From: Clostridiaceae bacterium BRH_c20a
GTDB lineage: Bacteria > Bacillota > Peptococcia > Peptococcales > BICA1-8
Assembly: GCA_000961765.1 (NCBI GenBank)
Contig: LADT01000055.1
Coordinates: 1-64,000 of the forward strand
Reading direction: 5' to 3'
DNA: 64,000 nt
Numbering within the stretch: position 1 is the stretch's first letter; every line of letters begins with the position of its first letter. Shown one piece after another: positions 12,754-63,699 of this stretch. A program made the position numbers and the translations under genes. Under the pieces are notes generated by a model that saw only the letters and a list, made by a program, of their open reading frames with translations, ran no database searches and was not told where the DNA came from.

Positions 12754-14358
12754 TTATAACATTTCAACTACCTTCTCATAATCCTCCGCATACTTCCAAA
12801 CAATCTCAATCCGATTCTCATCAAACACATAAATCGAATCGACAAGTTCTGCAACCAATTCCCTGCTGAGTTCCTTAATCCTTTGCTTCCCCTTGAAATG
12901 ATCCACAAACTGATTGTCAGAGTCTTTTTTCTTCAAATTTTGAATTTCATACTCTGCTTCCATTTTGCTGACCTGTTTCGTTGCTTTTTCCATTTCAAGA
13001 CTAAGCTTCTCCTTTGCCTTTAGATAATTATCCTTACTCACTTTCCCATCAAGATATTTCTCGTATTCTTCAACCTTTAAAGCATTAAAGCGTTCAATAG
13101 CTTGTTGTGCTTTTCTGATCTCTTGTAAAATAGTTGCAATCTCCTTTTCTGACTTTGTTGCAGCTTTAGATACCAATTTCTCTACTTTATTAGCTAGGGC
13201 TGCCTGTTGATGTATTGAAACAAGCAAAACTTCCAAAACTTCAGCTTCATTGATTTTTCCTCGATAACAAAGGCACTGGTCATCATAGAGATATCGACTA
13301 CACTTATAATAAGGGGTTTTCCTTGGAAAACGCTGCAGGTTTTTATTACAAAACCCGCATTTCATCTGTCCATAAAGGACCCTTTCTGTATCAAGGGTAT
13401 AGCTTTTTCGTTTATCAATTTTTCTAATAGCACCTTGGGCTTTTTCAAAGAGTTCTTCACTCACAATAGCTTGATGGGTATTAGGCACAACTATCCATTG
13501 CTCACGTGGCACAGCCACTGTCTGTCGGCTATTAACATCCGGCGTTTCCCTCTTATGATTTAGTGTTTTACCAGTATACGTCTCATCCTTAAGAATCTTT
13601 AGGATAGCCATTGTCTGCCAGACTAAAGTGCTCTTTGTTTTGGACCACTTTTTATTCGTATTTTTTTCCTTAAAGTAAGCTCCAGGCGAAGGTATATTCT
13701 CAGAGTTAAGAATTTTAGCGATGGCACTTGTATTGTTACCCTCAGATGCCAACTTAAAGATCCGTTTAACAATCAAAGCAGCTTCATCATCTACAACAAT
13801 GACGTTCTTTTTTTCTTTTGACTTCAAATAACCATACGGAGCAAATGAACCAATATACTCACCTTTTTTCATCTTTACTGTTTTGGCTGTCTTCACCTTT
13901 TGGGAAAGATCTTTACTATACATGTCATAAATCAGATTTCTAAATCCAACATCAATACCGGCAGTTATTCCATGATTTTTCGCACTGTCATAGCCATCAT
14001 TGACAGATATAAACCTCACCCCTAGAAAAGGGAAAACCTGCTCCAAATAATCGCCAAGCTCTAAATAATTCCTTCCAAATCTTGAAAAGTCTTTAACAAC
14101 AATACAATCAATTTCTCTTCTTTTTACTTGTGCTAACAGTTTCTGAACTGAGGGCCTTTCAAAATTGGTTCCACTATAACCATCATCGCAGAATTCTAAT
14201 GTTTTCCCATCGGCGAGCTCTGAATGATTACTGATGAAGCTTGTAAGTAAGTTTCTTTGATTACCTATACTGTCACTCTCAGTTTTAATCGTACTTTTTG
14301 ACAAGTCTTTGTCTTCATCTGAAAGTCTGATATACATTGCCACGACCAACTTATTCAT
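12754..14358 (-). CDS. Large serine recombinase 1
   Basis: 534 aa. It has a resolvase domain (YIRLSDEDKD, catalytic-serine region SDSIGNQ, SRFGRNYLELGDYLEQ), a recombinase domain, a zinc ribbon (CGFCNKN then CSRY and CLCY) and a long C-terminal coiled coil (about 375-480). Large serine recombinases of the TnpX/TndX type cut and join attachment sites by a serine-linked intermediate. Its ATG lies 8 bp inside the end of recombinase 2, so the genes are coupled. The order R3-R2-R1 suggests that all three act together in integration and excision. Confidence 0.95.
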   Translation of the reverse strand: MNKLVVAMYIRLSDEDKDLSKSTIKTESDSIGNQRNLLTSFISNHSELADGKTLEFCDDGYSGTNFERPSVQKLLAQVKRREIDCIVVKDFSRFGRNYLELGDYLEQVFPFLGVRFISVNDGYDSAKNHGITAGIDVGFRNLIYDMYSKDLSQKVKTAKTVKMKKGEYIGSFAPYGYLKSKEKKNVIVVDDEAALIVKRIFKLASEGNNTSAIAKILNSENIPSPGAYFKEKNTNKKWSKTKSTLVWQTMAILKILKDETYTGKTLNHKRETPDVNSRQTVAVPREQWIVVPNTHQAIVSEELFEKAQGAIRKIDKRKSYTLDTERVLYGQMKCGFCNKNLQRFPRKTPYYKCSRYLYDDQCLCYRGKINEAEVLEVLLVSIHQQAALANKVEKLVSKAATKSEKEIATILQEIRKAQQAIERFNALKVEEYEKYLDGKVSKDNYLKAKEKLSLEMEKATKQVSKMEAEYEIQNLKKKDSDNQFVDHFKGKQRIKELSRELVAELVDSIYVFDENRIEIVWKYAEDYEKVVEML

Positions 14359-16060
14359 AAGACTTCACCTCAATTCCTTGAGCTTTAAAATGGACTCTTA
14401 GTTCTTCAAAGGTATCTTTGAATTTGAAGTTGATATGAATATGCTTGTCTGATTTAAGCTCAATGGAATGTACTAAAGCCGTCAACATTTCTCTACTTAA
14501 TTCTTGAGCATCCATAAACCTTCTAAATGCAGTTAAATACTTATTTTCGTGTGTATAGACTTCAGCAAATCTACTTTGCTCTAAGAAAAGTTCATCGAGT
14601 CGGTTTCTAAACTTTTCCTCTTTCTTGTCATAGTCATTCTTAGCATAAAGATATTCTTGTTCCGTCAACAATTGCTCCAAATAATCGTCAAATAGTGTCG
14701 TTCTAATTGCTTGCAACTTTTCTATTTCTATCTTCGTTTTTTTGATTTCTAATGCAATATTATTGCTTTGATTGCTGCGCTTATTCTCTGCCATTACCTT
14801 ATCAATAATTTTATCAATATCATTCACTAGCTCTATTTCGTTTTTAATGGTTTCGTAGACAGCAGCCTTCAGTTCATCCTCAAAGATGTATTTTCTAGAG
14901 CATTTGCAGCCATTGTTGCTTTCGAACGTGGTACACAAGAAGTAATAATACTCTATTTCACCTTTCTTAATATGCCTTCTTCTTACTAAATTGCTTTTAC
15001 AGTCGCCACATTTAGCAAGGTCTTTGAAAATATTCTCAGTATTCTCCAAATGCTTGTTTCTTTCAATTGCTTCATGGAATTCCTCATTAATCAGAACTCT
15101 CTTATTGTGAACAATATCAAAACTTTCTTGGTCAATTATTTGCTCATGATCGTTCTCGATTATTGTCCATTGATCTCTTGGCATTCTTGATTTTTTCTTT
15201 CCCTCATACAGGGAAGCTTGAATCTTGCCATAAATCTTATGCCCTAGATAAACTTCATTTTCTGTAATAGCTTTTATTGCTATACGTTGCCATACGCTTT
15301 CCTTATAACGATCACTTTTCCATTCGCCTTTATTAAGCTTATGTTTGCTTGGTGATGGAACGTTCATATCATTTAGTCGTCTGGCAATAACAGCATCACT
15401 TAATCCTTCAAGCTTCCATTTGTAGATTTGACGTATTACCACCGCAGCTTCCTCATCTACAACTAAGGTATAGCTTCCATCATTAGGTCTGGCATAACCA
15501 TAGGGCACGTGAGCTCCTAAGAACTCTCCCTTCGATTGCCGTTCCTTGAAGGAGGTAATAATTTTCTTTGAGATGTCTTTTGTATAAACGTCATTAAGTA
15601 AGTTTTTAAGAGATATAATCAAACCTTCATTTGTATTTTCGGGATTAAAACTATCATAATTATCATTAATGGAAATGAACCGTACTCCTAAAAACGGAAA
15701 AATCTTTTCAAGATAATTTCCAGTTTCAAGATAATCTCTTCCAAATCGAGATAGGTCTTTAACCACTATGCAATTTACTCTTCCACCTTTCACATCATCC
15801 ATCAATCGATTGAATTCTGGCCTATCAAAATTAGTTCCTTTTTCGCCATTATCAGTATAAATCGAATAGGTTTGTAGATATGGTCTTTCCTCCACGAACT
15901 GTTTTAGCATAGACGTCTGATTATGAATAGAGTCGCTATCTTTTCTATCCCGAATGTCCTCGATTGAAAGTCGAACGTAGATACCAACCTTAAAAGCTTT
16001 CTCTAATACAATGGTCTCTTGATTAGCAATAACAGATTGTCTTCTGCTTTTTCTAGCCAT
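14351..16060 (-). CDS. Large serine recombinase 2
   Basis: 569 aa. The N-terminal resolvase domain starts after about 25 extra residues (YVRLSIEDIRDRKDSDSIHNQ, then SRFGRDYLETGNYLEKIFPF). A recombinase domain and a zinc ribbon (CGDCKSN, later CTTF and GCKC) follow, then a coiled coil at about 430-500. It starts one base before the stop of recombinase 3 ends. The three proteins share the same layout but are clearly diverged, so the cluster is an old triplication rather than a recent duplication. No catalytic residue appears lost. Confidence 0.95.
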   Translation of the reverse strand: MARKSRRQSVIANQETIVLEKAFKVGIYVRLSIEDIRDRKDSDSIHNQTSMLKQFVEERPYLQTYSIYTDNGEKGTNFDRPEFNRLMDDVKGGRVNCIVVKDLSRFGRDYLETGNYLEKIFPFLGVRFISINDNYDSFNPENTNEGLIISLKNLLNDVYTKDISKKIITSFKERQSKGEFLGAHVPYGYARPNDGSYTLVVDEEAAVVIRQIYKWKLEGLSDAVIARRLNDMNVPSPSKHKLNKGEWKSDRYKESVWQRIAIKAITENEVYLGHKIYGKIQASLYEGKKKSRMPRDQWTIIENDHEQIIDQESFDIVHNKRVLINEEFHEAIERNKHLENTENIFKDLAKCGDCKSNLVRRRHIKKGEIEYYYFLCTTFESNNGCKCSRKYIFEDELKAAVYETIKNEIELVNDIDKIIDKVMAENKRSNQSNNIALEIKKTKIEIEKLQAIRTTLFDDYLEQLLTEQEYLYAKNDYDKKEEKFRNRLDELFLEQSRFAEVYTHENKYLTAFRRFMDAQELSREMLTALVHSIELKSDKHIHINFKFKDTFEELRVHFKAQGIEVKSYE

Positions 16061-17728
16061 TTATATCGCCTCCTTTAATACTGTTACATCAAAGGAATCC
16101 GATTTGCTTGCGCTCTCAATGAATCGAATAGCACTTTCATACTCACTAAGATACCTAAAATGAATATCAATCTTGCCGTTCTCATAGACATATATTTTTT
16201 TTATCAGTGATACAACAATTTTTCTAGTCAGCGTTTCGATATTTTGGTACTGCTTGAAATTCTGAATCCAAAGATTGATAGTGGTTTTATTGTTTACAAT
16301 ATCCTCAATTTCACAAGTTCTTTTTTGAATTAGATTTTCTGCCTTTTCTAGCTTTTCATTGTACCTACTGACATGGGCTTTATATTCTTCTTTTGTTATA
16401 AACTGATCCACATAGCTCTCGTAGGATTTCAGCTTATAGTTTTGAATTTTCTCAACTTCATCCATAGCCTTCTTTATTTGAGAATCCAGTTTAATAATCT
16501 CTTCTTGCTGGTAGGGCAATGATTCAATGTACGCCAATATTCTTTCCACATCTAAAACGCTTTGAATATGGGCATTCATAGCTGTAAGTACAGCTTCTGT
16601 AAAGCTTTTTTCGCTTATATTGTGCATTGTACAACTAGCTTTATCGTTTCTATTACTTGAACAGGCAAAGTAGTAATACTTCTTACCATTCGCAGGAACC
16701 GTCTTGCGAATCATGTTATCTTTACAATCTCCACATGCAACAATTCCTGAGAACATATATACTTTGTCCTCTTTAGGAGCAATTCTTGTATCATGGAGCA
16801 ACAACGCATTTACTATTGCAAAGAGCTCCATTGTAATAATGGGTTCATGAGCATTATCTACACGCACCCATTCTTCCTTTGGCCGATCTACTCTATTTTT
16901 AACTTTATAATTTGGTGTAGTGCGTTTACCTTGTTCCAATACACCTAGATAAAGTTCATTAGTCAATATCCGTCTTACCGCAACCGCAGACCAAAGGGCT
17001 TGCTGCTTCACCTTAAAGGTTGTTTTATATTTTTGGCCCAGTGAACGTTTATATTCTAAGGGCGATAAAATCCCTAACTCATTTAAACGAGTAGCAATTC
17101 CTTGTTGACTCATGCCTTCAAGCTTCCATTTAAAAATGTCACGCACTATGTCACCTGCATACTCATCAATAACCAATTTGTGCTTTTCATTTTCAGCTTT
17201 TCTATATCCATAAGCAGCAAAAGAGCCGATGAAATCACCCTTTTTACGTTTGATTTCAAGCTGGCTCCTTATTTTTATAGATGAATCACGGCAATATGAG
17301 TCGTTGATTAAATTTTTAAACGGAATCATGATGTTGTCTGTGATTGAAGATCCTTCCGCGCTATCATAATGATCGTTGATAGCAATAAAACGCACACCAA
17401 GAAAAGGGAATACCTTTTGAATGTATTTCCCTGCCTCAATATAATTTCTTCCAAAACGTGAAAGATCTTTAACAACAACACAATTAACCTTACCCGTCCT
17501 GATCTCTTCCATCATTTCTAGGAAAGCAGGTCGATTAAAGTCAACACCACTAAAGCCATCATCAACATGTACGGAAACAATCTGTACCTCTGATTTCGAC
17601 TTCAAATAATCCTTAATTAGTTCCTTTTGGTTAGAAATGCTGTCGCTTTCTTCTTTGTCACCATCATCTTTTGATAGTCTCACATAGATTGCAGCATTAC
17701 AAATCTTATCATCTTTTATAAATTCCAT
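16061..17728 (-). CDS. Large serine recombinase 3
   Basis: 555 aa. Resolvase domain with YVRLSKDDGDKEESDSISNQ and SRFGRNYIEAGKYIQKVFPF; recombinase domain with GISQQ-like and YKRSLGQKYK segments; zinc ribbon CGDCKDN then CSSN; C-terminal coiled coil. GGAGGC lies upstream of the ATG. It is the first gene of the recombinase operon. Serine-recombinase triplets are known on some streptococcal and clostridial ICEs, where they stand in for a single integrase; I infer the same here. Confidence 0.95.
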   Translation of the reverse strand: MEFIKDDKICNAAIYVRLSKDDGDKEESDSISNQKELIKDYLKSKSEVQIVSVHVDDGFSGVDFNRPAFLEMMEEIRTGKVNCVVVKDLSRFGRNYIEAGKYIQKVFPFLGVRFIAINDHYDSAEGSSITDNIMIPFKNLINDSYCRDSSIKIRSQLEIKRKKGDFIGSFAAYGYRKAENEKHKLVIDEYAGDIVRDIFKWKLEGMSQQGIATRLNELGILSPLEYKRSLGQKYKTTFKVKQQALWSAVAVRRILTNELYLGVLEQGKRTTPNYKVKNRVDRPKEEWVRVDNAHEPIITMELFAIVNALLLHDTRIAPKEDKVYMFSGIVACGDCKDNMIRKTVPANGKKYYYFACSSNRNDKASCTMHNISEKSFTEAVLTAMNAHIQSVLDVERILAYIESLPYQQEEIIKLDSQIKKAMDEVEKIQNYKLKSYESYVDQFITKEEYKAHVSRYNEKLEKAENLIQKRTCEIEDIVNNKTTINLWIQNFKQYQNIETLTRKIVVSLIKKIYVYENGKIDIHFRYLSEYESAIRFIESASKSDSFDVTVLKEAI

Positions 17729-20479: not shown

Positions 20480-20974
20480 TCTTTTCTCTCCTCGTTTAAT
20501 ATTAAACTTGACAGCACAATGATACGGTGGCCTGCACCGACTGCTGGGAATTTTTATCAACCCACTAGAGCGCAGTCCACCGCATAGTTTCTGCTGTCAA
20601 GCATTTCGTTTGAACAGTAGTTTTTTGTATCAAATTTGTTCTCAACACCCCTGATACTAATAAGGGGATACATCAGGTTGCTTTTGGAAACATCATATAA
20701 GCTGACATGGCTATAAGTTCTCAAGCCAAATGAGCGTTATCCTGTCATTTATTGCAGGCTGCCCAATGCGGTAAGGCGTTCAAGGCAGAAGTATCATTAT
20801 TTATCCCTTTGCTAGTCATCGCAAGTAGCCTTTCCACAGGCTATTAAAAGCCGGATTTAGTCGCTCTCGTCAAAGACGGTCATGGCGCTCCGCTTAGGTT
20901 GCTTGCCTTTTAGGGGCTGCAAAGGTGGTTTTCCTGATATACCGGATATTCAGTTTTCAAGGATCATGAGAAGA
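20480..20974 (-). promoter_or_regulatory. Long leader upstream of the DinG-like gene
   Basis: About 495 bp without a normal-size gene between the sigma-like gene's terminator and the helicase. On the minus strand it holds a hairpin AGCC-N8-GGCT (near 20827-20843), a micro-ORF with ribosome site (20745-20819), a hairpin CCCCT-N10-AGGGG (near 20650-20672) and several short frames closed by stops. The mix of structure and micro-ORF suggests attenuation or another leader-based control; no promoter stands out. Confidence 0.45.
20745..20819 (-). CDS. Micro-ORF, possible 24-aa leader peptide
   Basis: 24 codons (MTSKGINNDTSALNALPHWA, then four more residues) with AAAGG nine bases before the ATG and a TGA stop. 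It sits in the helicase leader between two hairpins. Either a regulatory leader peptide or chance; no homology claim is made. Confidence 0.3.
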   Translation of the reverse strand: MTSKGINNDTSALNALPHWAACNK

Positions 20975-21575: not shown

Positions 21576-21609
21576 AGAAAAAGGCCGGAAGTGAAAATCA
21601 CCTCCGGCC
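21576..21609 (-). terminator. Terminator upstream of the sigma-like gene
   Basis: Arms at 21583-21592 and 21600-21609 (GGCCGGA core, G/C-rich) over a short loop, followed on the minus strand by TTTTTC. It is the second of two hairpins between promoter P1 and the sigma-like gene. Confidence 0.82.
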
Positions 21610-21647
21610 ATATCTGCCGTGTATTTATTTGCTATCTGAAAAAGGGC

Positions 21648-21684
21648 ATAAAAATAGCCCCAAAACCAAAATGGTCTTGAGGCT
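21648..21684 (-). terminator. Terminator about 50 nt after promoter P1
   Basis: On the minus strand AGCCTCAAGACC pairs with GGTTTTGGGGCT (arms at both ends of 21656-21684, including wobble pairs), followed by ATTTTTATG. It would stop transcripts from the promoter at 21735-21740 after roughly 75-80 nt. Confidence 0.75.
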
Positions 21685-21734
21685 GTCTCACAAAGTTATT
21701 CAATTATTTTAAGCCATAATTCACCAGCATAGAT

Positions 21735-21802
21735 AGTGTAACATGCTTTATGTCGGATAGCAGTACGGAAACAATCGGGTATTAATCGGGAAATTGTCGG
21801 GG
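21735..21802 (-). promoter_or_regulatory. Promoter P1 with helically phased CGG iterons
   Basis: On the plus strand CGG triplets begin at 21754, 21766, 21776, 21787 and 21798, spaced 12, 10, 11 and 11 bp, mostly inside TCGG(G). On the minus strand they lie just upstream of an extended -10, TG-T-TACACT (21743-21735), with no consensus -35. The same layout occurs at 25150-25227. An activator that binds successive helical turns is the natural reading; the ArpU-like protein encoded next to it is the candidate. Confidence 0.65.
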
Positions 21803-21806
21803 CAAT

Positions 21807-22370
21807 TTATGCCTTGAAAAAGCATGGAATATCAACTTCATTTCCTGTCGTTTCAAACATTCCTCTCATTGAGGGAATAGTATATCCCCACATACATATT
21901 GCAAATAAATCAATCGCTTCTCTTTTCTTATCATAATAAGTACTTCTCTCCATATTCAGTAGTTCCAACATCTGTCTCTCATTATAATTATCGCTTGTTA
22001 AAAACTGCTTGCTTAAAATTTCATAATAGAGCTTCCCATTTTCAGGATAGTCATGTATTTTGCTCATAGCGGATTCAATCAAAGAAATCAGCCATTGTGT
22101 TTCAAATAATGATCTAACCTGTACAGAAAACTTCTCTTGCTCAATGTCTGGTGCAAAGTTAGCCAAATACTCAAGCGCCTCCTCCATTTTTTTACCACTA
22201 TAATATTCAGCGCTTTCACATACCTCTTTCGCACGATTTGATACAGACCATACCACAGGACGGTACATCATCAGAAGCATTTTACTTTTATGTAGGACCG
22301 CTGTGCGATCAATCTTAAGGCCTTGATACATAAATGTACATTGTTTATTAACTTTGCTCTCTTTTCGCAT
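21807..22370 (-). CDS. ArpU-like transcription regulator, copy 1
   Basis: 187 aa. The C-terminal part (NERQMLELLNMERSTYYDKK, then REAIDLFAICMWGYTIPSM) resembles the helix-turn-helix of ArpU-type phage regulators. It is a paralogue of the 25232-25798 protein over its full length. The ATG at 22370 follows AAGGAAAGG; homology with copy 2 (MRKES) supports it over the frame's earlier ATG. Iterons of promoter P1 begin five bases after its stop. A conserved leader hairpin lies about 100 nt upstream of it. Confidence 0.75.
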   Translation of the reverse strand: MRKESKVNKQCTFMYQGLKIDRTAVLHKSKMLLMMYRPVVWSVSNRAKEVCESAEYYSGKKMEEALEYLANFAPDIEQEKFSVQVRSLFETQWLISLIESAMSKIHDYPENGKLYYEILSKQFLTSDNYNERQMLELLNMERSTYYDKKREAIDLFAICMWGYTIPSMRGMFETTGNEVDIPCFFKA

Positions 22371-22460
22371 GATCCCTTTCCTTTCTGTATTTATACAATC
22401 CAAGTAAGCAAGTTTAAAGTATTATTCACAAATGTCTAAATTTCGACCTTATCCGCAATA

Positions 22461-22645
22461 CAAAAAGTCCATAACTTTCCAATGTGAATAGGAAAGTTAT
22501 GGACCTAATAACACTAAACCAGATTGTTAAATTGGTTTACGATATATAGTCGAAACATTTTCTTACATTCAGCATAGGTCTTTTTTGAAGCGTGTGGCTT
22601 CATACTTCGATAGCTTTCATGGCTCATATTTAATTTTTGTGTTGA
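22461..22645 (-). promoter_or_regulatory. Leader element / direct repeat, left copy
   Basis: Left copy of a roughly 185-bp direct repeat that flanks the GTPase gene. A 14-bp perfect stem with a 10-nt loop (22467-22480, 22491-22504) is followed on the minus strand by TTTTTG. About 85 nt earlier on that strand is a 6-bp stem TGAAGC-N5-GCTTCA (22586-22602). A 37-codon frame (22514-22627) crosses it but has no ribosome site. It reads as a structured leader or attenuator before the ArpU-like gene, and also a terminator for the GTPase gene. Confidence 0.65.
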
Positions 22646-22661
22646 ATCAAGTAGCTTTTAT

Positions 22662-24758
22662 TTAAACGTATAAAACATGTAAATCTGCCGCTTTATTAAT
22701 TGCTAATGATAAAGTTTTGATAATTGCATCAATGTAGGCACCTTCATTGATTTCTGCCTTATTAAAATACGGATTACAATTGTTTAGAAATCTATTGAAT
22801 TTCATTCCAAAGCTAAATGAACCTTGGTTTTCAGCATCCATCAATGCTTTAAAATAGAGCATTTGAGCAACAAACTCCAAAGGATTAAAGTACCCACTGT
22901 TAATGATTATTTCGTTCAGGCGTTTATTTCCATCACTTACTTTAAACACTCCACCCTTATACTCTACAGCTGTATCTAATACTTTTGATATAAAATCCTT
23001 TGTTACAAAGTTTTTAAGATTGCCTGGAAAATTCACTGAGAATGACTTGCAATTATAAAAGTATTCTTCAATAATATTAGATGTATACCCATTACCATTC
23101 TTTAACCTCCTGCGTAGAGCATTATAAGCATTTCCATGTGGAGTTTTACCCACACTATCTGCTATATCACGAAGAGATGGTTCAAATACTTTTTTCTCGA
23201 TTTCTGGAAGAGCTAATGTATTCAAAACAAGCTTCTTTACAGCATCTTCATTAATACATGGTAAAATATTTGACTCTCCACTATTTGACAGAACAAATTT
23301 TATTTTCACAGCATTAGCTTGTAGGTGCTGTGTCATTTCTTCAACCATAGTTCTTATAGCATTAATAGCATTATACTCTACTAAAAGCTCCCTAGTCATA
23401 TTGTTATCCTTTTTCAGATAACACGGCAAAGACAGTATTTCAGAAGATTTCCTATTCTTATGCTGTGATTTCTGTAACTCTTCTCTAATAGTAGCCATTT
23501 TCTCATTAACTTTTTTCTTTATTTCATTAAAAGATAAAACTTCATTGGAAACTTCTATCGATAGCGGATCTTCACTACTGAGTTCTTTGTTCAACGCGTC
23601 TATAAAAAGGTCAACCTTATTATTCAGAATGAACACTGGTATTTGCTTATTGTATTTCTTCATAGAGTTAGAATAAAGTTCTCTCAGCTTTGCTTCATTG
23701 GTATCTCCTGTAAGTGGGCAGACTAGCATTAATGCATCATAATTGATACCATATAAAAGTTCAGTAAAATATTCAAAATTATCCTCGTCACCAGAATTAG
23801 TATGATATAGGCCTCTTGTATCATATATTCCAATTGCTATTTTTCCATCCTTGCCCATAAACACATTTTTTGTATTCTCTTTGGATTTAATCATCTCTGC
23901 AATTTTTTCATGTATTGGTGTATACATCACTATTTCAGAACAAAGCACCTCAATTGATAGCCTGTCCCCTTTTCGCAAGTCATTTGAGGTAAACATTGCA
24001 TCAACAAATTCACTACTAGACTCTTGTTCATCTAGATTAATCACATAATAATAATACCCATCGTTTGAGATATCATCATTTTGGAAGTAATTGAAAAACA
24101 AAGACTTCAAAGAGTGGTTTACACTATTCCATATATCCCATAATTGATCTAGAATATTTTTATCTAGCTGATCAAACGATTTTTCTACTTCACTCCTTAT
24201 TGCTCCGAACAATTTTGCAGAGTTGTCCTTCACTTCTATATTTCCCAAGTTGTTCTTAGCTGTGTTGTAGATAGAATAGCTGTTTTTATAAAAATCATTA
24301 TTTTCTAACACATTTGAAACTTCCATCGCCAACTTGTCAATTTCATCCTCAGTAAGAAATGAAAGTATTGCTCTCGAATTAACTTTTGTTGTTATCTCAG
24401 CTAGCAAAAAAGTAATAAAATCCTCATTTGCCTTACCTGAAACATAAGCTACAATTTTCCCATTGTCACGCACCACTTTTGACATAGATACAACAATAAG
24501 ATCGATAAAATCTTGTCTTTCAAAGATGTCATCTCTTAATTTAACCGCAACAATTATTTCATTAACTAGAGCTTCTGAATAAACCACTACCCGTTCCTTT
24601 AATGTAGAATTTGTCTCTCCAACACTTTTGCCAATGATTTTCTTTGCTCTTGGTGATGCAAATGTACTAGTGATTTCACTTTTACCATCACCAGTCCCTC
24701 CAGCAACACCGATTGTTCTAACATTTGGTGTTAAATTCACATGATTCAAATTTCCCAT
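22662..24758 (-). CDS. Large P-loop GTPase of unknown role
   Basis: 698 aa. Walker A GGTGDGKS (residues 20-27), a DTRG motif at about 312 (G3, in IGIYDTRGLY) and NKVD at about 381 (G4) define a GTPase with an unusually long, mostly helical insertion between G1 and G3. The C-terminal 300 residues are unrecognised. No transmembrane segment is visible. AAGGAG precedes the ATG. It is transcribed with the two ArpU-like genes and enclosed by direct repeats. A dynamin-like or other switch function is possible, but I do not recognise the family. Confidence 0.7.
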   Translation of the reverse strand: MGNLNHVNLTPNVRTIGVAGGTGDGKSEITSTFASPRAKKIIGKSVGETNSTLKERVVVYSEALVNEIIVAVKLRDDIFERQDFIDLIVVSMSKVVRDNGKIVAYVSGKANEDFITFLLAEITTKVNSRAILSFLTEDEIDKLAMEVSNVLENNDFYKNSYSIYNTAKNNLGNIEVKDNSAKLFGAIRSEVEKSFDQLDKNILDQLWDIWNSVNHSLKSLFFNYFQNDDISNDGYYYYVINLDEQESSSEFVDAMFTSNDLRKGDRLSIEVLCSEIVMYTPIHEKIAEMIKSKENTKNVFMGKDGKIAIGIYDTRGLYHTNSGDEDNFEYFTELLYGINYDALMLVCPLTGDTNEAKLRELYSNSMKKYNKQIPVFILNNKVDLFIDALNKELSSEDPLSIEVSNEVLSFNEIKKKVNEKMATIREELQKSQHKNRKSSEILSLPCYLKKDNNMTRELLVEYNAINAIRTMVEEMTQHLQANAVKIKFVLSNSGESNILPCINEDAVKKLVLNTLALPEIEKKVFEPSLRDIADSVGKTPHGNAYNALRRRLKNGNGYTSNIIEEYFYNCKSFSVNFPGNLKNFVTKDFISKVLDTAVEYKGGVFKVSDGNKRLNEIIINSGYFNPLEFVAQMLYFKALMDAENQGSFSFGMKFNRFLNNCNPYFNKAEINEGAYIDAIIKTLSLAINKAADLHVLYV

Positions 24759-24789
24759 AACAATATCTCCTTTTTTTGTTTTATTTACA

Positions 24790-24975
24790 AAACAAAAAGT
24801 CCGCAGATTCCCTATGTGAATAGGAAAGCTACGGACATATATTTATAGACAAATTCTCAGTAAAGAGAAATTCATTAATATCGTCGCAACACTTTCAAAC
24901 CTTCAGCATAGTTCTTTTTGAAGCGGGTAGCTTCATACTTCGACTGCTTTTTATTTTGTATATTTTAATTTACCA
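24790..24975 (-). promoter_or_regulatory. Leader element / direct repeat, right copy
   Basis: Right copy of the repeat at 22461-22645. The stem is at 24799-24812 and 24823-24836 with loop TATGTGAATA; 9 of 10 loop bases equal the left copy while the stem differs by paired changes. TTTTTG follows on the minus strand. The second stem TGAAGC-N5-GCTTCA is at 24919-24935. A minus-strand remnant frame here reads KKQSKYEATRFKKNYAEGLK and then VLRRY-stop, with no start codon; the left copy carries a one-base shift in the same place. It is the leader of the GTPase gene. Confidence 0.65.
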
Positions 24976-25149
24976 TAAATATGAATGCCTGTAAATGGTT
25001 TTATGCAAATACTTTAGAAGACTACATCCCATTACTATTGCATATGGTCAATTTCAGCTTCTCAACAGACAATAGAATCTGACTTCCTATCCATCGCAAT
25101 CATCATCCCATTATTCAATAAGTGATAGCTATAATTCACCAGTATAGAT

Positions 25150-25227
25150 AGTGTAACATGTCGTTTGTCCGAAAGCAGTAGGGATTCAGTCGGAACTTTA
25201 TCGGGTTATAGTCGGGAAATAGTCGGG
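25150..25227 (-). promoter_or_regulatory. Promoter P2 with helically phased CGG iterons
   Basis: CGG triplets begin at 25191, 25202, 25213 and 25224, exactly 11 bp apart, with degenerate units near 25170 and 25181. The minus-strand extended -10 TG-T-TACACT lies at 25158-25150, with surrounding sequence nearly identical to promoter P1. It would drive the leader and GTPase gene to its left. About 390 bp separate it from the GTPase start; apart from the leader element I see no gene there. Confidence 0.65.
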
Positions 25228-27366: not shown

Positions 27367-27885
27367 CTACTTTCTCAAACTTTTTAACTTCTCTCGAAAG
27401 TCTCTATTTATAGGCGATTTGTTCTTTGCAAGATTAAGCGGGGGACTCATCTCATTGATAAGCACATTTTCTATTTCACCAATATTTTCATCTACCAACC
27501 AATAAAGAATCATAAGATTTCTTCTCATCCAAGATGATAGTTTTTCTTCACATGTATCATTAAATTTGTATTTCCCATCTCGAAAATAAACCCTCATATC
27601 TCGCCATTCATGTAGAGCACCCAAGCTTTTGCGTAGTGTCGACTGTCTTGCAGTGCCTTTGAAATGGTTTTTATAATCTCGATCTCTCAACCCTTGGCTT
27701 TCCGAAATCCCAATGTATAAAGCGTGATATCCGTTAAACATCAGAACCTCGGCGTTGATAAACAAAGGTTTTATGCAATCTGCATTTCTTGCAATTATCA
27801 TGTATATGCCTTTAGCTGAAGGCAATTGTGAAACTTCATCATTTAACGGATCAAATAGACTGGGATTATTTCGGTCAAAATCCAC
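27367..27885 (-). CDS. GIY-YIG nuclease-like protein
   Basis: 172 aa. GIY at residues 26-28 and YIG at 57-59 are followed by basic residues in GLRDRDYKNHFKG (Arg near 67-69), a late Glu in INEMSPPLNL and its Asn, the order of catalytic positions in GIY-YIG nucleases. A roughly 30-residue insertion separates the two hallmark motifs. It is 41 bp downstream of the helicase and the last gene of the HD-to-GIY operon, so it may be the nuclease effector or processing enzyme of that system. Confidence 0.75.
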   Translation of the reverse strand: MDFDRNNPSLFDPLNDEVSQLPSAKGIYMIIARNADCIKPLFINAEVLMFNGYHALYIGISESQGLRDRDYKNHFKGTARQSTLRKSLGALHEWRDMRVYFRDGKYKFNDTCEEKLSSWMRRNLMILYWLVDENIGEIENVLINEMSPPLNLAKNKSPINRDFREKLKSLRK

Positions 27886-27926: not shown

Positions 27927-30872
27927 TTACTTGTAATAAGGGCTTAAGTTCATAAAAAGTTGACTATCGATTTGTCCAGCAATTTCTCGATTGATTATCT
28001 CAATTAACTCCTCTTGTCTTGGTTGCCCTAAAGTTAGTCGATATAAGGATAACACTTTAATTAATCGATTGTATCTCAAACGATCTTGGCTTAATGGATA
28101 CATTGGAACAATGCGCTCAATTTTTACTTTTGCTTCATCGCCATCCGTTAAACACCAATATGGTACAAGGTCTGGATGCTCACCCTTTTCTGTATGTACC
28201 GCTTTTTCAAACATAGCATCCCAAGTCTTTTCATAATAATACTTGTATGCGATGTTTTGACGTACAGCATGACACTTATATCTGTTGATACGTCCTTCCC
28301 TTTGTTCTAGATCTATAGGATTTGATGGTAAATTCCAGTGCATAATTTTACGACAATAAAAATGGAAATCTAGCCCCTCTTGACCAATTGAAGTTGTAGC
28401 TAATACAAATGGACGGAACGGTGAATTAAACGCCTGCCTGATTTTTTCAGTTCTCTGAACATTTTCATTCGTAACACGAGCATTAAAATATCCAACTGCA
28501 AAATGTGTTCTTAGGCGTGCCTTTTCTTTGTCCACTCCCGTAAAATATTCCTGTGTGTCTATTTGTAACGATGCGGTATCTGAAAAAGCGTCAATCATTG
28601 CATCTGCCAAATCTTCTCTACTTTCACCTAAGATATGAGCATATTCATCCAAAATCGCTTGAAGATTACCATCAACACAGTACCGAAAAACATTTTCATA
28701 ATATGAGTCGTCTCCTTTGCTGCCGTAAAGCAAGTCAAGTACAGCTGAACTTTCTGCCTTATTAAACAGACTTACAAAGACTTTTTTCGCGACCTCCTTC
28801 GCAAGCACCTCGCTTGAATTAAAAAGTCTATAGGCACAAATGGCAGGAGAGCCTATTGCCATATTAATCAGAGTACCTACCACTCCAGCAGGTATTGTTG
28901 TCGGTACTGCTGATACATTATGATCAAGAGCTTTGACAATCTCTATCATTGCCTTTGCACCTGCAGTCCCACTTTCAGAAAGTTTGTATTTCCCCTTGAT
29001 AGCATCTACTTTGGGTTGAAGCTTTTCAGCCAATTCTTTTCTGATTAGTTTGATATCCTTACCTATGTTTTCTTCCGGTTTATACAGTCTTGCTAGTGTT
29101 CCAGATACTAAACATATAATATCTTCAGTTTCATTTTTAAGTCTTGAAATTCCAAAACGGCGTTCTTCTTTTGACGCAAAATATCCTCTACCACGCTTGA
29201 TTTTCACATTATGAAATAACTTACCTATTGTAAGTCTTTCTGCTTCATATGAAAGCATGACCGAAATCATTCGCGGCACCATCTCCCATGATGAAAACAC
29301 TAGTACCTTGGAGTAATCTTTATTTTTTTCAAAAATGCTGCCTGTTTTATAATAAGGTTTAGACGAAGGTATCCACAGAAGATTTTCAGCCCCATTCTTA
29401 CCACCTTGAAATACAACTTCCTTAAGCTTTTCCAAACGGGCATTATTTGCTGCTATTGGCTGATAATTGTGAAACGTGCTTTTCTTCAGAAGTAGCCTCT
29501 TAGCACTTGCGTTTTTTACTAAATCAAAATCCTTATGTCTTAAAAAGAATTCAGTAATTTGCTTCTTCAGATGATAGCTTTCCATAAACGAAAGAAGGTA
29601 GGGTGAAGATTTTACATAATCCATGGGCACATTACGATATCTTAAAGGACGTTTACTTCGTGAGCTGATTTCGTCTAAGAGTGACTGTATCTCACTGAAT
29701 GATAAAATATCTCCTTCAGAGATTTCAACCTCTTTTGCTTGGCTATCATCAATAATTCCAGTATTAAAACGTTCCGTTCTGCAAATGCTTTTATATAATG
29801 CATCTTCAGCAGTGTTCTTTCTGACAAGAAGTATCGTCAAATCGCCCTTCGAAATTTCACTCAGAGAGTTTGAGTAATCTCTCCACACTTGGTGGAAACT
29901 TTTTTTCACATCCTCATCATAAAAGAGAAAGCCCATGACCTCCATAAATTCTTTATAATGCTCAGCATTTTCATCGGTACTGATTTCTTCTAAAGTAGAA
30001 TACGGTTTATATGGCGTTGCAGATAGCAACAATACTTTTGTTTCAGTATTACTTAGAAACTGACGAGTAAGTAATTCTTGCTCATCATCACTATGTGTTA
30101 TTAGGTCACGGAATCGCTGAAATTCATCCATAATAACAAGATCCGGTTCCAATTTATCTAGACTGATTTGTGCAAAAATTTTTCTTATTGAATTGATCAA
30201 AGGCCTGCTATCAGATTTTCTTGATGGACTTTTGGCATTGCAATTTTCAATTATGCTTTCAACAAGTCCATCACTTTCATCAAGTCTTCTTGAAAGCTCC
30301 TTACCGATCTCAGAGATATAGTTGCTGCCATTGGAATCACACTCAAGTACTTTACCTTCATATGAATCAACATACCATCTCCAGTACTTTTCAGCATCGT
30401 AAGCCAAAAATATTGATAATTTATCGGTATGCTTCTCAAATTCAGGTAGCCTTTTAAGATGTGCATACATCAAAGCTCGTTCTTCTTGGTTACCACATCC
30501 GGACGTCATAGAAAATGATGTCGCTGGAGTTAATGGAATGAGCTGCTCATAACTATGATTATTACCTCTATTTTGGTAAATTTTTAGATGCTGCATCGAT
30601 AGCCGGCTCTCAGACACATTCATCAAGTCCTTAATGCCAAGTTTTCTTGCGTTTTGATTAGCAATATTAATATTGGAGCAAATATAAATCACTTTAAAAT
30701 GATTGTCGTTCATTTCAAGCTTATGCCAGTTTGAAACTTGCCTGATAACATCTCTGGCAATAATTGTTTTACCAAGACCAACCTCATCAGCAAGTAGTAT
30801 TCTGTTCTGACCACCTCGAAAAACCTCAAGTATTCTATTAGCAGTGGCCTTTTGAAAATCCTTTGGAATCAT
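27927..30872 (-). CDS. Large SF2 helicase
   Basis: 981 aa. LADEVGLGKT (Walker A, residues 28-37), VIMDEFQRFRDL (motif II, about 247), LLLSATPYKP (motif III), and C-terminal TTSIGQEGLDFHFYCRKIMH and EQREGRINRY (motifs V-VI). The middle is an unusually long insertion. It is a DNA translocase of the SNF2-like type found in defence loci. Its start overlaps the PLD gene's end by four bases (ATGA-type), so they are coupled and probably form a helicase-nuclease complex. Confidence 0.9.
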   Translation of the reverse strand: MIPKDFQKATANRILEVFRGGQNRILLADEVGLGKTIIARDVIRQVSNWHKLEMNDNHFKVIYICSNINIANQNARKLGIKDLMNVSESRLSMQHLKIYQNRGNNHSYEQLIPLTPATSFSMTSGCGNQEERALMYAHLKRLPEFEKHTDKLSIFLAYDAEKYWRWYVDSYEGKVLECDSNGSNYISEIGKELSRRLDESDGLVESIIENCNAKSPSRKSDSRPLINSIRKIFAQISLDKLEPDLVIMDEFQRFRDLITHSDDEQELLTRQFLSNTETKVLLLSATPYKPYSTLEEISTDENAEHYKEFMEVMGFLFYDEDVKKSFHQVWRDYSNSLSEISKGDLTILLVRKNTAEDALYKSICRTERFNTGIIDDSQAKEVEISEGDILSFSEIQSLLDEISSRSKRPLRYRNVPMDYVKSSPYLLSFMESYHLKKQITEFFLRHKDFDLVKNASAKRLLLKKSTFHNYQPIAANNARLEKLKEVVFQGGKNGAENLLWIPSSKPYYKTGSIFEKNKDYSKVLVFSSWEMVPRMISVMLSYEAERLTIGKLFHNVKIKRGRGYFASKEERRFGISRLKNETEDIICLVSGTLARLYKPEENIGKDIKLIRKELAEKLQPKVDAIKGKYKLSESGTAGAKAMIEIVKALDHNVSAVPTTIPAGVVGTLINMAIGSPAICAYRLFNSSEVLAKEVAKKVFVSLFNKAESSAVLDLLYGSKGDDSYYENVFRYCVDGNLQAILDEYAHILGESREDLADAMIDAFSDTASLQIDTQEYFTGVDKEKARLRTHFAVGYFNARVTNENVQRTEKIRQAFNSPFRPFVLATTSIGQEGLDFHFYCRKIMHWNLPSNPIDLEQREGRINRYKCHAVRQNIAYKYYYEKTWDAMFEKAVHTEKGEHPDLVPYWCLTDGDEAKVKIERIVPMYPLSQDRLRYNRLIKVLSLYRLTLGQPRQEELIEIINREIAGQIDSQLFMNLSPYYK

Positions 30873-32581
30873 CTGCTCAGCCTCCTTGCTGCAAGCTCAA
30901 ATTGCTTATACATGTCTAAGAAATCACTTCCAATAATTTTTTCATCTAACCGTCTGATAATATCTGCTATCTCTTTAAGTTTGGCTGGATTTTGATGAAC
31001 TGCTTTTAGCATTTTTTCGTAGATCGCAGCAAAAACAGGTGCATCGTCTGAATCTTTTTCATTTCCATTCATCATCCTCAAATATTCCGCTTCTTCTAAA
31101 GCCCCAGCTGCATACTCTTCAGACAGCATAAAGGATACATATGATAAGAACTTCGTCTTTGAGTTGATGATGTTTTTGTAAATTGCATCGTCTCTATCAG
31201 AAGGTATTCCTTTAGTTTGAATCTTAATAATAATCTTTTGACCCTGAATCGACAAAATGTAAAATTCACTTAGATCTTTAAGAAGCATGCCTTTAAAATC
31301 TGATTGAGTCTGTAATTGCTGAAGTAAATCCTGCCTTTGCATCGGTGCAATTTTTATAACTTCTTTTGTTTTTATAACCTTTGATTCAACTCTGACATCG
31401 TAAAAGTCACCATTTATAACAACCTTTGCACCTTTTAGGGAATAAATAGCTTCCTTAAATGCTTTATCTATCGCATCCTGTTCTTCATTCAAAGGTTCTT
31501 TTTCTGGTGTCGATTCAATGACTTCATATGGGCAGTTTTCTTCAGGGATAAAATCATTAAAAAAGGTTTTGAACCCAACGCAATTAGGCTTGTATTTAAG
31601 TTTCAGCAAGAATTCAACATTCTTGTAGAATGCATTATGCGAAGCATTTGCCGAGCCTATGTAGAGAAAATTCCCTTCATTTGTCACTGTAAAGTATAGT
31701 TTCGCATGTATATCTTGCTTTACACCAAACTCATTATCATTCAAAATATCTTTCGTTATGTAAACACAATTAAAGCTGTTGATTGCTGATGGAGTTACTG
31801 ATGCCTTTCTGGTTACCAAAATCTTATTATATGGGCATTTTGTAATTTCATTTATAACATCATCACTTAAAAAAGGCGAGACGACAAATACATCATATTT
31901 GCTATTGAATAGCTTTGTATTTTCCATTTTATGTCCATTGATACCAAGTGGCAAAAATTCATAATCCTCAAATGGGTGTTCGATGTCGAAAGTTTTAACA
32001 TGCAAAATATCATTGGCAAGCTCCAATATTCTCTGCCTTTTAACCTTATCTGCGTACTCTGAAACAAATGCAAGCATGTCTGCTAAAGGTTGATTCTTAT
32101 TGCGCTTTACACGTGTGATTTCTCCCTGCATTGCAACACACAAATCAATGCTATTGTCAAAAGTCATATTTCGGCTAAGCACAAGCAGTTTTATGTAGGA
32201 TTTTCCATCATCGTTCTTGTATTTTATAAACCACAGCTTAGGATGAAAGTTCTGTCGATTTGAAAGTTTAATTTCAAAAACACTATTTTCTAAAAGTGAA
32301 TACACACTTTGAATTTTTTGAGGTAAAGAAATGCCCCCAGCATTACAAAAGATAGCAATGTTATCACTACTTTTTCGAATTGCCTCCAGTAAGTAGAAAG
32401 GACTTCTCATAAGTTCAGAATCAACTTCATCCAATAATCCTAAAGACACCGGTATTCCTAGTAATGCCTCAAGATCAAGCGAATAGGTTAGCCCTACTGC
32501 AAAGTCAAGTTTATATCCTGTTTCTGGTTGCAGCAGTTCGCTATAGCTTAATCGATTATGAGCTGTATCAAACATTGCCAT
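30869..32581 (-). CDS. Phospholipase D-like nuclease
   Basis: 570 aa. Two HKD-type half-sites: FHPKLWFIK with SRNMTFD (about residues 113-137) and IHAKLYF with GSANASHNAF (about 302-325). PLD nucleases cut DNA by pairing two such motifs; here both lie in one chain. The C-terminal 230 residues are helical and unrecognised. It is directly between a DUF6361-like gene and the helicase, and overlaps the helicase start. Confidence 0.85.
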   Translation of the reverse strand: MAMFDTAHNRLSYSELLQPETGYKLDFAVGLTYSLDLEALLGIPVSLGLLDEVDSELMRSPFYLLEAIRKSSDNIAIFCNAGGISLPQKIQSVYSLLENSVFEIKLSNRQNFHPKLWFIKYKNDDGKSYIKLLVLSRNMTFDNSIDLCVAMQGEITRVKRNKNQPLADMLAFVSEYADKVKRQRILELANDILHVKTFDIEHPFEDYEFLPLGINGHKMENTKLFNSKYDVFVVSPFLSDDVINEITKCPYNKILVTRKASVTPSAINSFNCVYITKDILNDNEFGVKQDIHAKLYFTVTNEGNFLYIGSANASHNAFYKNVEFLLKLKYKPNCVGFKTFFNDFIPEENCPYEVIESTPEKEPLNEEQDAIDKAFKEAIYSLKGAKVVINGDFYDVRVESKVIKTKEVIKIAPMQRQDLLQQLQTQSDFKGMLLKDLSEFYILSIQGQKIIIKIQTKGIPSDRDDAIYKNIINSKTKFLSYVSFMLSEEYAAGALEEAEYLRMMNGNEKDSDDAPVFAAIYEKMLKAVHQNPAKLKEIADIIRRLDEKIIGSDFLDMYKQFELAARRLSR

Positions 32582-32583
32582 CC

Positions 32584-33750
32584 CTATCCCTCCAATCCTT
32601 TGATGATATCATCTATAATAATTTTGGCTGTTCCAAATCTATAATCAAGCCTATAAAAATGTACTGGTCTGTCATAATTATATTGGTACTCCTTTGGTTT
32701 ACAGAGTTTGGCTCTATCACCCTTAACCGCTTTTTCTCTTGCTATAATTAATTCATCCATTGCTTTAAAATCACTCTTATAGACCGATCCTAGAAATTCC
32801 TCGCAAAATTTTGAAGTTGAATAATTACACGAAATTCTGCCCAATATACTATCAAGCTTGAATTCGCCATCTATAAAGCCATCTTTCCACAGATTAAATT
32901 CATTAATCATTTCCTCATCTTCATAGTTGGAGAAAATAATATTATAGCGAATGTGTGCACCTATGATAAAATCCGAAAAAGTCTTTGCCAATTGATAGTC
33001 AATCCTCATTCCATCTTGTAAAACATTCGAAGGAATTTCATCAAAGCTATTGCAGTTGAGTCTGTTTTCAATTAAGAATGCCAAAAGTGTATCCTTAGAT
33101 AATGAAGCTTTCAGAATTCTATTTTCTAGGAATTCGGCTTCTTTGTGCGTAAGCGAAATCGATGCAGTCTTTTCAAAATCATAGTCAGCTTTAAAAGGAG
33201 AAAAAAGGAGAAGATTTCCTTGCCCTGCTGAGGAATCATCAAAAGAATCGCCATCAGTCTTAATCTCCGTCTCATGTTTTTTTCGTGCTAAAGACCACGC
33301 AATATTACAGGCTGCGCTAAGGGAAATCCCCGGATTCCTTAAGATTTCAAAAGTTCTCATACCATTCCAATATATGCTTGATGGCTTCATCTTTACGGTT
33401 CGCTTTTGTTTTAATGCGTTCTTTCCAATAATCCCTGTTTCCTCGCTATCGCTATTCCTTACAAGGGTATCTACCAACTTATCTTCATTCGTGTTTAACC
33501 ATTTATAAAACTCTCTCCCACTTGAAAGATTCTGATTTGCGGCTCTCTCAAATAGGTATGGAATAAGCACAAAATATTTAGCTCTTGTTTGGATTGTTGA
33601 AATTCCAGGGAAAAGAATATCAGCATAAGCATCACGAATTACACCGATTCCAAGCTCATCCAATGCGGTTTGCGCCCCAAGTAACTTCAAGGTAGCTAGT
33701 ATTTTATTCCTTTCATCTTTAGAAAAATCTATAAATCCGATTTGCATCAA
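32584..33750 (-). CDS. DUF6361-like protein
   Basis: 388 aa. The opening MMQIGFIDFSKDERNKILATL and the segment PGISTIQTRAKYFVLIPYLF match what I recall of DUF6361, a family found beside PLD and helicase genes. Enzyme motifs are not visible; it is alpha-helical, soluble, and ends in a basic tail (LDYRFGTAK). It is 2 bp upstream of the PLD gene and may be the target recognition or scaffold subunit; that role is inferred from constancy of the neighbourhood. Confidence 0.7.
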   Translation of the reverse strand: MMQIGFIDFSKDERNKILATLKLLGAQTALDELGIGVIRDAYADILFPGISTIQTRAKYFVLIPYLFERAANQNLSSGREFYKWLNTNEDKLVDTLVRNSDSEETGIIGKNALKQKRTVKMKPSSIYWNGMRTFEILRNPGISLSAACNIAWSLARKKHETEIKTDGDSFDDSSAGQGNLLLFSPFKADYDFEKTASISLTHKEAEFLENRILKASLSKDTLLAFLIENRLNCNSFDEIPSNVLQDGMRIDYQLAKTFSDFIIGAHIRYNIIFSNYEDEEMINEFNLWKDGFIDGEFKLDSILGRISCNYSTSKFCEEFLGSVYKSDFKAMDELIIAREKAVKGDRAKLCKPKEYQYNYDRPVHFYRLDYRFGTAKIIIDDIIKGLEG

Positions 33751-61860: not shown

Positions 61861-63699
61861 TTACCTGCCGCCTGCTTTTCCCATATAATTGAATTTATAA
61901 TCGGGAATCTCAAAATTTACATGCAAGCGCTTTGAACCGATTATAAACAAGGCATGTCCCCTACGTTTACTTTCAAGCAACTCTTCCTCTGCTTCAGTCA
62001 AATTGTAGAGCTCCTTTGTTTCTTTCAAATTCTGACCATCACAGCCCATAATTAGCTTTATACAGGGAATATCTAGTAGTGCCTGTCCATACATTTTGAT
62101 TTCTGGCGATAGAAAATCTACTACACTGTGTGAGATTATAATTAAGCCAGCTTCATACTTTCTAGCACGTTTCTCAACGTTCCTTAGAAAAACAAGACTT
62201 TGAGGCACTAGTGGGTCAATCATCAGATACGCTTCATCACAGATAAGAAGTACACGTTCTGACCGGTCTTTGCTCATCTGTTCCCAACACCATCCTAGAA
62301 GGTTAAAATACTGCGTTCTTTTTAGGTTCTCGCTTGTGTTTTGTAAACTGTGTGTATCAAGACAGATACATCGTGTATGCGTTTCAATCGTGCTGTATCC
62401 ATTCCACAAGAAGCTATCACTACCATTAGCTACATCGTAGAAGAGTAAAGCTAAGTTTCTATATTCACTATCACCATCATTTGATTTTGCCTTCTCATCA
62501 ATTAACTTATATAGCTCACTGAAAGTCGGGAACTTTTCGTTCCCAAATGCAGAAATGTCTGTATCCCAATCAATTCCGAAGCGTTGATACAATTCAATGA
62601 CACTTTGTTTAAGGACAGCTTTTTGCATATCGCTGAGACTAGGCAAATACAATTGAAAGAAAATTTCAAGGTTCTTAACATGGAGTGCCATGTCACTCAT
62701 CCCCTCAACATCACCATATAACTTGCCTCCTTTTTCCTCTGGTTCTTCATCACTGTCTCTTGGAGCAGGTCTAATTTGAAGTGGATTAATCTTGCCATTC
62801 ACCCCTCCACCTGCATTAATCCAATCCCCATCAAGGTTATGACACAGATCCTTATACTCTGATTCCGGATCAATAATGATTATCTTAGTACCCTTCATGT
62901 ATTCTGAAAGAATGATGTGCTTCACTGCGGTAGACTTACCGACGCCTGCCACACCCATGACTACCATGTTGGAATTAGTTCTGTCGTTACCTCTTTTCCA
63001 GGAATCTACAATAACAAGTCCCCCATTATTGTCCTTCGCAAAGTAATAACCACTGCCATCATTGAAACCGGAACTTGCGAATGGGAAGCCCCCCACAAAT
63101 GTACTCATTGGAATAATTCTTTGAACAATATTTTCTATAACAGGACTTGTTGGATATGTCGGTGATAGGTTCTGTAAACCGTCCTTCTGCAAATTGGCAA
63201 GGGTTCTTACCTTACCTTTCATAACGCTAACTACGCTTTCTACCCGCCTACTCACTTTTGCAAATTGTTTTTCATCAAAAGCCAGTGGCATGATGGTAAG
63301 ACTCATAAGCGCAACTGTTTCACCCTTCTGATCAATTTGCAGCATGATTCGTTCACCATCTTCTGCTGCTTTCTCTGCTCTTTGACGCGCCAAAGGATCT
63401 TTGGCACTATCAGCAGCCCCACGATTTTGAATGATACTTTTACTTATGGCTGAAATTAAAGCACCATTGTCCACTGGCTTAATGCCAATTGAAACAATGG
63501 TGCTTGGAATATTCGTTATTTTTGAAAGCCAACCAACATCAACCTTTTGAGGATATCTGACAACACCATAGACCTTCCCTGTGTTTTCACCTATGACTAA
63601 GCTGTTACGTTTCACTTCCAAGCCCATTGGCGTAATCACATTGAGAAGTGCTTCATTAACAGGAACAAAATCAGTTTTTCCTTTTTTCTCTCTCATCAT
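61861..63699 (-). CDS. VirB4/TraE-like conjugation ATPase
   Basis: 612 aa. MGVAGVGKST (Walker A, about 253), IIIIDPESEYKDL, LLICDEAYLM (Walker B, about 490) and ISHSVVDFLSPE identify a VirB4-type ATPase that powers type IV secretion. The N-terminal 200 residues are the region that contacts the membrane channel. It is shorter than the roughly 800 aa of some relatives. It overlaps the preceding partial gene by 4 bp. Confidence 0.88.
   Translation of the reverse strand: MMREKKGKTDFVPVNEALLNVITPMGLEVKRNSLVIGENTGKVYGVVRYPQKVDVGWLSKITNIPSTIVSIGIKPVDNGALISAISKSIIQNRGAADSAKDPLARQRAEKAAEDGERIMLQIDQKGETVALMSLTIMPLAFDEKQFAKVSRRVESVVSVMKGKVRTLANLQKDGLQNLSPTYPTSPVIENIVQRIIPMSTFVGGFPFASSGFNDGSGYYFAKDNNGGLVIVDSWKRGNDRTNSNMVVMGVAGVGKSTAVKHIILSEYMKGTKIIIIDPESEYKDLCHNLDGDWINAGGGVNGKINPLQIRPAPRDSDEEPEEKGGKLYGDVEGMSDMALHVKNLEIFFQLYLPSLSDMQKAVLKQSVIELYQRFGIDWDTDISAFGNEKFPTFSELYKLIDEKAKSNDGDSEYRNLALLFYDVANGSDSFLWNGYSTIETHTRCICLDTHSLQNTSENLKRTQYFNLLGWCWEQMSKDRSERVLLICDEAYLMIDPLVPQSLVFLRNVEKRARKYEAGLIIISHSVVDFLSPEIKMYGQALLDIPCIKLIMGCDGQNLKETKELYNLTEAEEELLESKRRGHALFIIGSKRLHVNFEIPDYKFNYMGKAGGR

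Follow-up and report, generated by a model that had tools for sequence, protein, structure and literature searches.

In the stretch of DNA analysed here, 64,000 nucleotides of contig LADT01000055.1 of Clostridiaceae bacterium BRH_c20a (hereafter the window), the gene for a GTPase-like protein stands between two similar elements, E1 and E2, each of which ends in a hairpin. The locus raises the question of whether these elements mark the insertion of the gene or are kept for an RNA that they encode, and of what such an RNA would do. The features discussed are listed in Table 1.

Table 1. Features of the GTPase locus, with positions in the window.
Feature	Position	Strand	Remarks
Tandem intrinsic terminators after T1	21583..21684	-	Position conserved in seven related-island loci; missing after T2
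Block T1	21696..21801	-	Iteron-promoter block as T2; after P1, upstream of sigma-like gene
Regulator copy P1	21807..22370	-	Weak DUF1492 match; homology to related islands starts ~25 nt 5' of ATG
Promoter-like site of P1	22438-22411
Element E1	22455..22640	-	5' block with dyad, variable linker, intrinsic terminator; pairwise alignment, blastn, covariance-model match
E1 terminator hairpin	22467..22504	-	38 nt, 14 bp, loop TATTCACATT, then TTTTTG
Possible E1 linker hairpin	22515..22539	-	TAAACC/GGTTTA; sequence unrelated to that of E2; P 0.14, alone not significant
E1 dyad/hairpin	22586..22602	-	TGAAGC-N5-GCTTCA
GTPase-like protein	22662..24758	-	698 aa; GGTGDGKS, DTRG, NKVD motifs; no Pfam family
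Element E2	24784..24975	-	Layout as E1; end 25 nt 5' of GTPase start codon; pairwise alignment, blastn, covariance-model match
E2 terminator hairpin	24799..24836	-	38 nt, 13/14 pairs, loop TATTCACATA, then TTTTTG
Possible E2 linker hairpin	24851..24872	-	AATTTCTC/GAGAATTT; P 0.08, alone not significant
E2 dyad/hairpin	24919..24935	-	TGAAGC-N5-GCTTCA
Promoter-like site just upstream of E2	24967..24995	-	TTTACA-17-TAAATT; consensus match only
Block T2	25111..25226	-	CCGAC/T iterons, 11-bp spacing, and promoter-like TATACTGG; 3' of P2, 5' of E2 and GTPase
Regulator copy P2	25232..25798	-	Weak ArpU-family match; nearer than P1 to the regulator of related islands

Layout and segment-wise constraint of the elements

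An earlier note on this DNA had described 185-bp elements at 22461 and 24790 sharing layout and blocks, and these are present as stated. The identity between E1 and E2 is ~72%, and a blastn comparison of the region with the window aligned 22449-22636 to 24781-24971 (72% over 194 columns, E ~1e-23). In the minus sense each element runs from an AT-rich lead through a 75-nt block containing the dyad and a linker of ~40 nt to a 14-bp hairpin and TTTTTG. The genes of the GTPase unit lie on the minus strand, which is the strand on which the terminators of the elements carry their U-run.

The identity between the copies differs from segment to segment. The 5' block is 82% identical and the tail 83%; within the terminator hairpin the values are 86% for the 5' arm, 90% for the loop and 64% for the 3' arm. 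The linkers are 35% identical against 32.5% expected for unrelated sequence of the same composition. As the linker is saturated, the copies must be old, and the 5' block and terminator have therefore been kept; by these identities E1 and E2 are old, diverged paralogues. That the 5' block and terminator are conserved although the linker between them has drifted to random indicates that both copies were maintained and that two separate parts were selected. In our view, this segment-wise constraint is the strongest single evidence that both elements work. A coding remnant was considered, as a peptide (SKYEATRFKK) is shared in one frame. It was ruled out by a 1-nt indel that breaks the frame after the peptide, and because this indel lies inside the 5' block a conserved reading frame is disfavoured.

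The arms of the dyad are invariant between the copies and two of the five spacer bases differ, in agreement with the second 6-bp stem of varying loop noted earlier; the exact dyad occurs nowhere else in the 4.5-Mb genome. Possible linker hairpins occupy the same place in E1 and E2 with different sequence. Inspection by eye and folding gave no convincing antiterminator in which the 5' block pairs with the terminator.

The terminator stem, read in the minus sense, is fully paired in E1 (GTCCATAACTTTCC/GGAAAGTTATGGAC, 14/14) and has 13 of 14 pairs in E2 (GTCCGTAGCTTTCC/GGGAATCTGCGGAC). Positions 5 and 8 are A-U in E1 and G-C in E2, with both sides changed. Positions 6 and 12 are U-A in E1 and U-G in E2; on the plus strand these would be C.A, so that they are paired only in the minus RNA. 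Position 9 is C-G in E1 and C.U in E2, a broken pair. The earlier account of five differing left-arm positions, comprising two double changes and two U-G pairs in the minus RNA, with nine of ten loop bases identical, was confirmed but left the broken pair unmentioned. Simulations that placed two substitutions at random on one arm and five on the opposite one gave 13 or more pairs together with two or more double changes at P = 0.0012 to 0.0058, a range which reflects the transition bias in a post hoc test on two sequences. The loop identity is not striking when compared with ~80% in the surrounding conserved blocks, and by itself the loop proves little.

Both hairpins are stable, contain G+C and run directly into the U-run (GGAC-TTTTTG on the minus strand), as intrinsic terminators do. 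The fold z-scores of the two elements (-4.1 and -3.7) are due to the terminator, and the elements without it fold no better than shuffled sequences (P 0.2-0.34). The earlier note took the covarying stem and conserved loop as a sign of selected RNA structure. As far as two copies can show, this stands: the linker is saturated, its neighbours on both sides have been retained, and the changed stem pairs better in the minus RNA. Selection on E at the RNA level is likely, but an ordinary intrinsic terminator would give the same compensatory pattern.

Insertion of the GTPase unit and regulator duplication

The GTPase unit is flanked by the regulator copies P1 and P2 (~73% identical in DNA and 71% in protein), each of which is followed by a T block. 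P2 shares 70-81% identity with the regulators of related islands and P1 64-72%; as P2 is the closer of the two, P1 probably arrived with the cassette. Two related loci, L019 (Pseudobacteroides cellulosolvens) and L020, represent the empty site, in which a repressor-like gene is followed by one regulator, one T block and the sigma-like gene, without the GTPase gene, E or a second regulator. In two others, L015 and L021, the cargo is a different one of 1.3 kb; it is bounded on one side by the complete regulator gene and on the other by a 134-bp duplicate of the 5' end of that gene. These loci have their breakpoint ~27 nt 5' of the regulator ATG, near the point where P1 loses homology, which suggests that the regulator 5' end is possibly a hotspot of cargo entry. 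The cargo together with the 134-bp duplicate (90% identical) spans 3514-5107 in L015 and 6514-8107 in L021.

The earlier suggestion that the GTPase gene is an inserted cassette thus agrees with the empty sites and with the second cargo, but its premise that the E repeats mark the insertion does not hold, as these are old paralogues; judged from the compared loci, the insertion mark is the regulator duplication, not E. The note had proposed to look for a single repeat in islands lacking the GTPase gene; L019 and L020 are such islands and contain zero copies of E.

These comparisons bear on whether E1 and E2 are DNA sites, either cassette boundaries for recombination or operators built on the TGAAGC-N5-GCTTCA dyad. 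The elements do flank an inserted gene, and the dyad keeps its arms while its spacer varies, as is seen at protein-binding sites. However, the divergence of the repeats is more than recent insertion marks would show, neither copy contains paired integron core sites (GTTRRRY/RYYYAAC, as in attC) on one strand, the dyad is confined to E1 and E2 genome-wide, and the changes in the stem prefer one RNA strand. Of the readings weighed here, this is the one to which we give least credence.

The GTPase, its island and the search for a third copy

The GTPase-like protein matched no family in Pfam, NCBIfam or PADLOC, and its structure prediction has a mean pLDDT of 32. The sole homologue found is encoded on a Paenibacillus plasmid (30% identical over 95%), where a dynamin-family gene and a putative phage abortive infection gene lie nearby. 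No homologue was found in 150 relatives, 398 genomes of the phylum, 390 genomes around Pseudobacteroides, phages or viral contigs. The full GTPase gene of the Paenibacillus plasmid is immediately preceded by a truncated copy of its N-terminal part (L017 7306-8144). The island in the window also contains helicase and methylase genes, three consecutive large serine recombinase genes (12754-17728, minus strand) and, by PADLOC models, a ZacA/ZacB/ZacC defence operon (27927-33750, minus strand), which adjoins a gene for a GIY-YIG protein (27367-27885). The GTPase probably has a role in defence.

Two known RNAs were identified elsewhere in the window, both on the minus strand: a dinG RNA (RF03082, 63.4 bits, 20697-20798) upstream of a DinG-type helicase gene and a T-box leader (RF00230, 129.6 bits, 25-272) at the window edge. 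The Pfam scan, which covered some of the window's ORFs, identified no conjugation genes (relaxase, mating-pair formation) other than one for a TraG/HerA-like ATPase at 61861-63699, and the island may continue past the window. Because no conjugation machinery was identified in the scanned set, the label of integrative and conjugative element (ICE) used earlier for this island, with its three large serine recombinases, is not supported.

The neighbourhood of the GTPase gene invites comparison with type III toxin-antitoxin systems such as ToxIN and AbiQ, in which an RNA gene, a terminator and a protein gene follow one another and the antitoxin RNA consists of tandem 34-36-nt repeats (PMC5086642). 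On this model E would be a small RNA that acts on the GTPase protein itself and holds it in check, the order being promoter, RNA, terminator and protein gene, with a second copy of the RNA after the gene. The order of RNA, terminator and protein gene is the same at the E locus (PMC5086642), the plasmid homologue lies near dynamin-family and putative phage abortive infection genes, and the island carries ZacABC. Unlike in type III loci, E has no tandem short repeats of 34-36 nt, and the protein carries GTPase motifs with no match to ToxN-type endoribonucleases or any other RNase family; moreover, a search upstream of the Paenibacillus homologue with a covariance model built from E1 and E2 (R1) found no E. 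We regard direct restraint of the protein by E as improbable.

The genome itself contains two copies of E. No homologue was found by blastn and R1 in 150 relatives, nor by covariance model in four genomes carrying related islands or in ~675 further genomes (~820 genomes by model overall). Exact patterns retrieved nothing related to E from one genome per species across 84,980 species or from viral contigs; more distant relatives would escape such patterns, and stricter filters were applied wherever a search took in more than 40 genomes. Two weak covariance-model matches were rejected: that in genome G101 lies upstream of a gene resembling infC (IF3) and reads as the terminator-ended leader of that gene, and that in G940 looks like a long terminator unrelated to E. 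Fifteen viral contigs with the dyad pattern were likewise unrelated. Several of them (L033, L034, L037, L039, L040 and L042) share a GTATGAAGCAGTAGGCTTCAAA hairpin just 5' of the start of one phage gene (ATGGCACAATTTAC); this hairpin is conserved, lies in the 5' UTR and has no relation to E. In Rfam no family scored above its gathering cut-off for E, and a permissive threshold gave chance-level matches only, mostly to eukaryotic families.

The covariance-model search of related islands that the earlier note had proposed had no loop or stem to compare, the homologous islands being without E altogether. As no third copy was found, E is plausible as a small regulatory RNA but is not a proven new class. 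A bolder version would make E1 and E2 the first two known copies of a novel structured RNA directly controlling a new family of defence GTPases, in which a terminator-gated unit yields excess RNA and the GTPase is released or expressed when a phage upsets transcription; we consider this quite improbable.

Conserved terminators and the possible role of E2

The T blocks combine their iterons with a promoter-like motif, TAT[AG]CTGG. Seven loci of related islands (L014-L016 and L019-L022, several of them near-identical), together with the P1 copy, have two terminators between this motif and the next gene, at 41-48 and 106-165 nt from the -10-like box. The sequences of these tandem terminators vary between islands while the hairpins persist. 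After P2 they are missing, and no strong terminator precedes the one in E2, at 310 nt; 136 bp of unexplained sequence lie between T2 and E2. The module is conserved over 21583-21830 of the window, where an ArpU-like regulator, 11-bp CCGAC iterons, a promoter and two tandem terminators precede the sigma-like gene or next operon.

The order of regulator, iterons, promoter and terminators in the island family suggests, by analogy, antitermination control. In phage lambda, Q acts at pR' and tR', where a regulator gene, its sites at the promoter and terminators just downstream precede the late operon. The island module resembles this arrangement in having a regulator gene, presumed sites at a promoter, terminators and then an operon; unlike Q, the island regulator is ArpU/DUF1492-like by weak match only, and antitermination would be an inference here. 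Among Gram-positive mobile elements, Tn916 uses terminators and the canT antiterminator RNA, which is ~450 nt long, cis-acting and directed at the conjugation genes (PMC11658703). The likeness lies in a mobile element that keeps genes off by terminators, which Tn916 turns on by readthrough, whereas an antiterminator at E is conjectural and that of Tn916 acts on conjugation genes (PMC11658703).

We tentatively favour the reading, on which we remain almost evenly divided, that E2 is a terminator-ended leader gating the GTPase gene and that E1 is an older paralogue or second copy between the GTPase gene and P1. From the layout we infer that transcription would enter E2 from a promoter-like site belonging to it (24995-24967), from the T2 promoter (~25140) or from both, that most of it would stop at the E2 terminator to give a structured RNA of ~170 nt, and that only readthrough would get to the ribosome-binding site just 5' of the GTPase start codon. 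A protein, another RNA or the polymerase would recognise the conserved 75-nt 5' block and so allow readthrough. E1 would end the GTPase transcripts and may gate P1 likewise, and E2 would stand where related islands have two tandem terminators after the regulator-promoter module. The distance from the E2 hairpin to the GTPase ATG is only ~40 nt, and a promoter scan of the minus strand found none between them. The strand of the terminators, the retention of two separate parts in both copies and the stem changes that pair only in the minus RNA also speak for a leader. In its structured 5' part, linker, intrinsic terminator and short gap to the ribosome-binding site, E is like the terminator-attenuated leaders of Gram-positive bacteria; unlike these, it has no Rfam match, no clear antiterminator and two copies around one gene. 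Leaders and riboswitches have a conserved sensor part upstream of a terminator before a gene; the 5' block of E, conserved in two copies, may be such a part. Against a leader stand the failure of all searches to find a third homologue, the lack of a convincing antiterminator, and folding no better than shuffled sequences once the terminator is removed; moreover, E1 is not directly 5' of a ribosome-binding site, and P1 has a promoter-like site of its own.

The main rival to a leader is that both elements are ordinary 3' intrinsic terminators, E1 ending the GTPase unit and E2 an earlier cargo gene that is now lost, with the 5' block as leftover 3' UTR. E1 starts 21 nt past the GTPase stop codon, compensatory changes are found in any terminator, and the unexplained sequence between T2 and E2 would accord with a lost gene. 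However, a 75-nt block that is 82% identical beside a saturated linker goes beyond the need of a bare terminator, and E2 ends shortly 5' of the start codon, the interval having no further predicted promoter on the minus strand. We consider plain terminators unlikely, although a serious alternative. E might also act in trans as a small RNA: its terminator arm with CUUUCCU, together with the loop, would base-pair with ribosome-binding sites, for instance the AGGAAAG before P1. Within the terminator, conservation is highest in the 5' arm and the loop, and AGAAAGGAAAGGG precedes the P1 ATG, but when duplexes were ranked over the initiation regions of the window, P1, P2 and the GTPase gene fell outside the best six for every probe, and pairing in trans is very unlikely.

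If E2 is indeed a leader, a duplicated leader that kept two functional parts while its spacer was randomised would be a small, testable case of termination gating in a mobile defence island, where cargo must be silent until needed. The comparison also revealed a wider rule of the island family, in which regulator, 11-bp iterons, promoter and two tandem terminators are ordered before the downstream operon.
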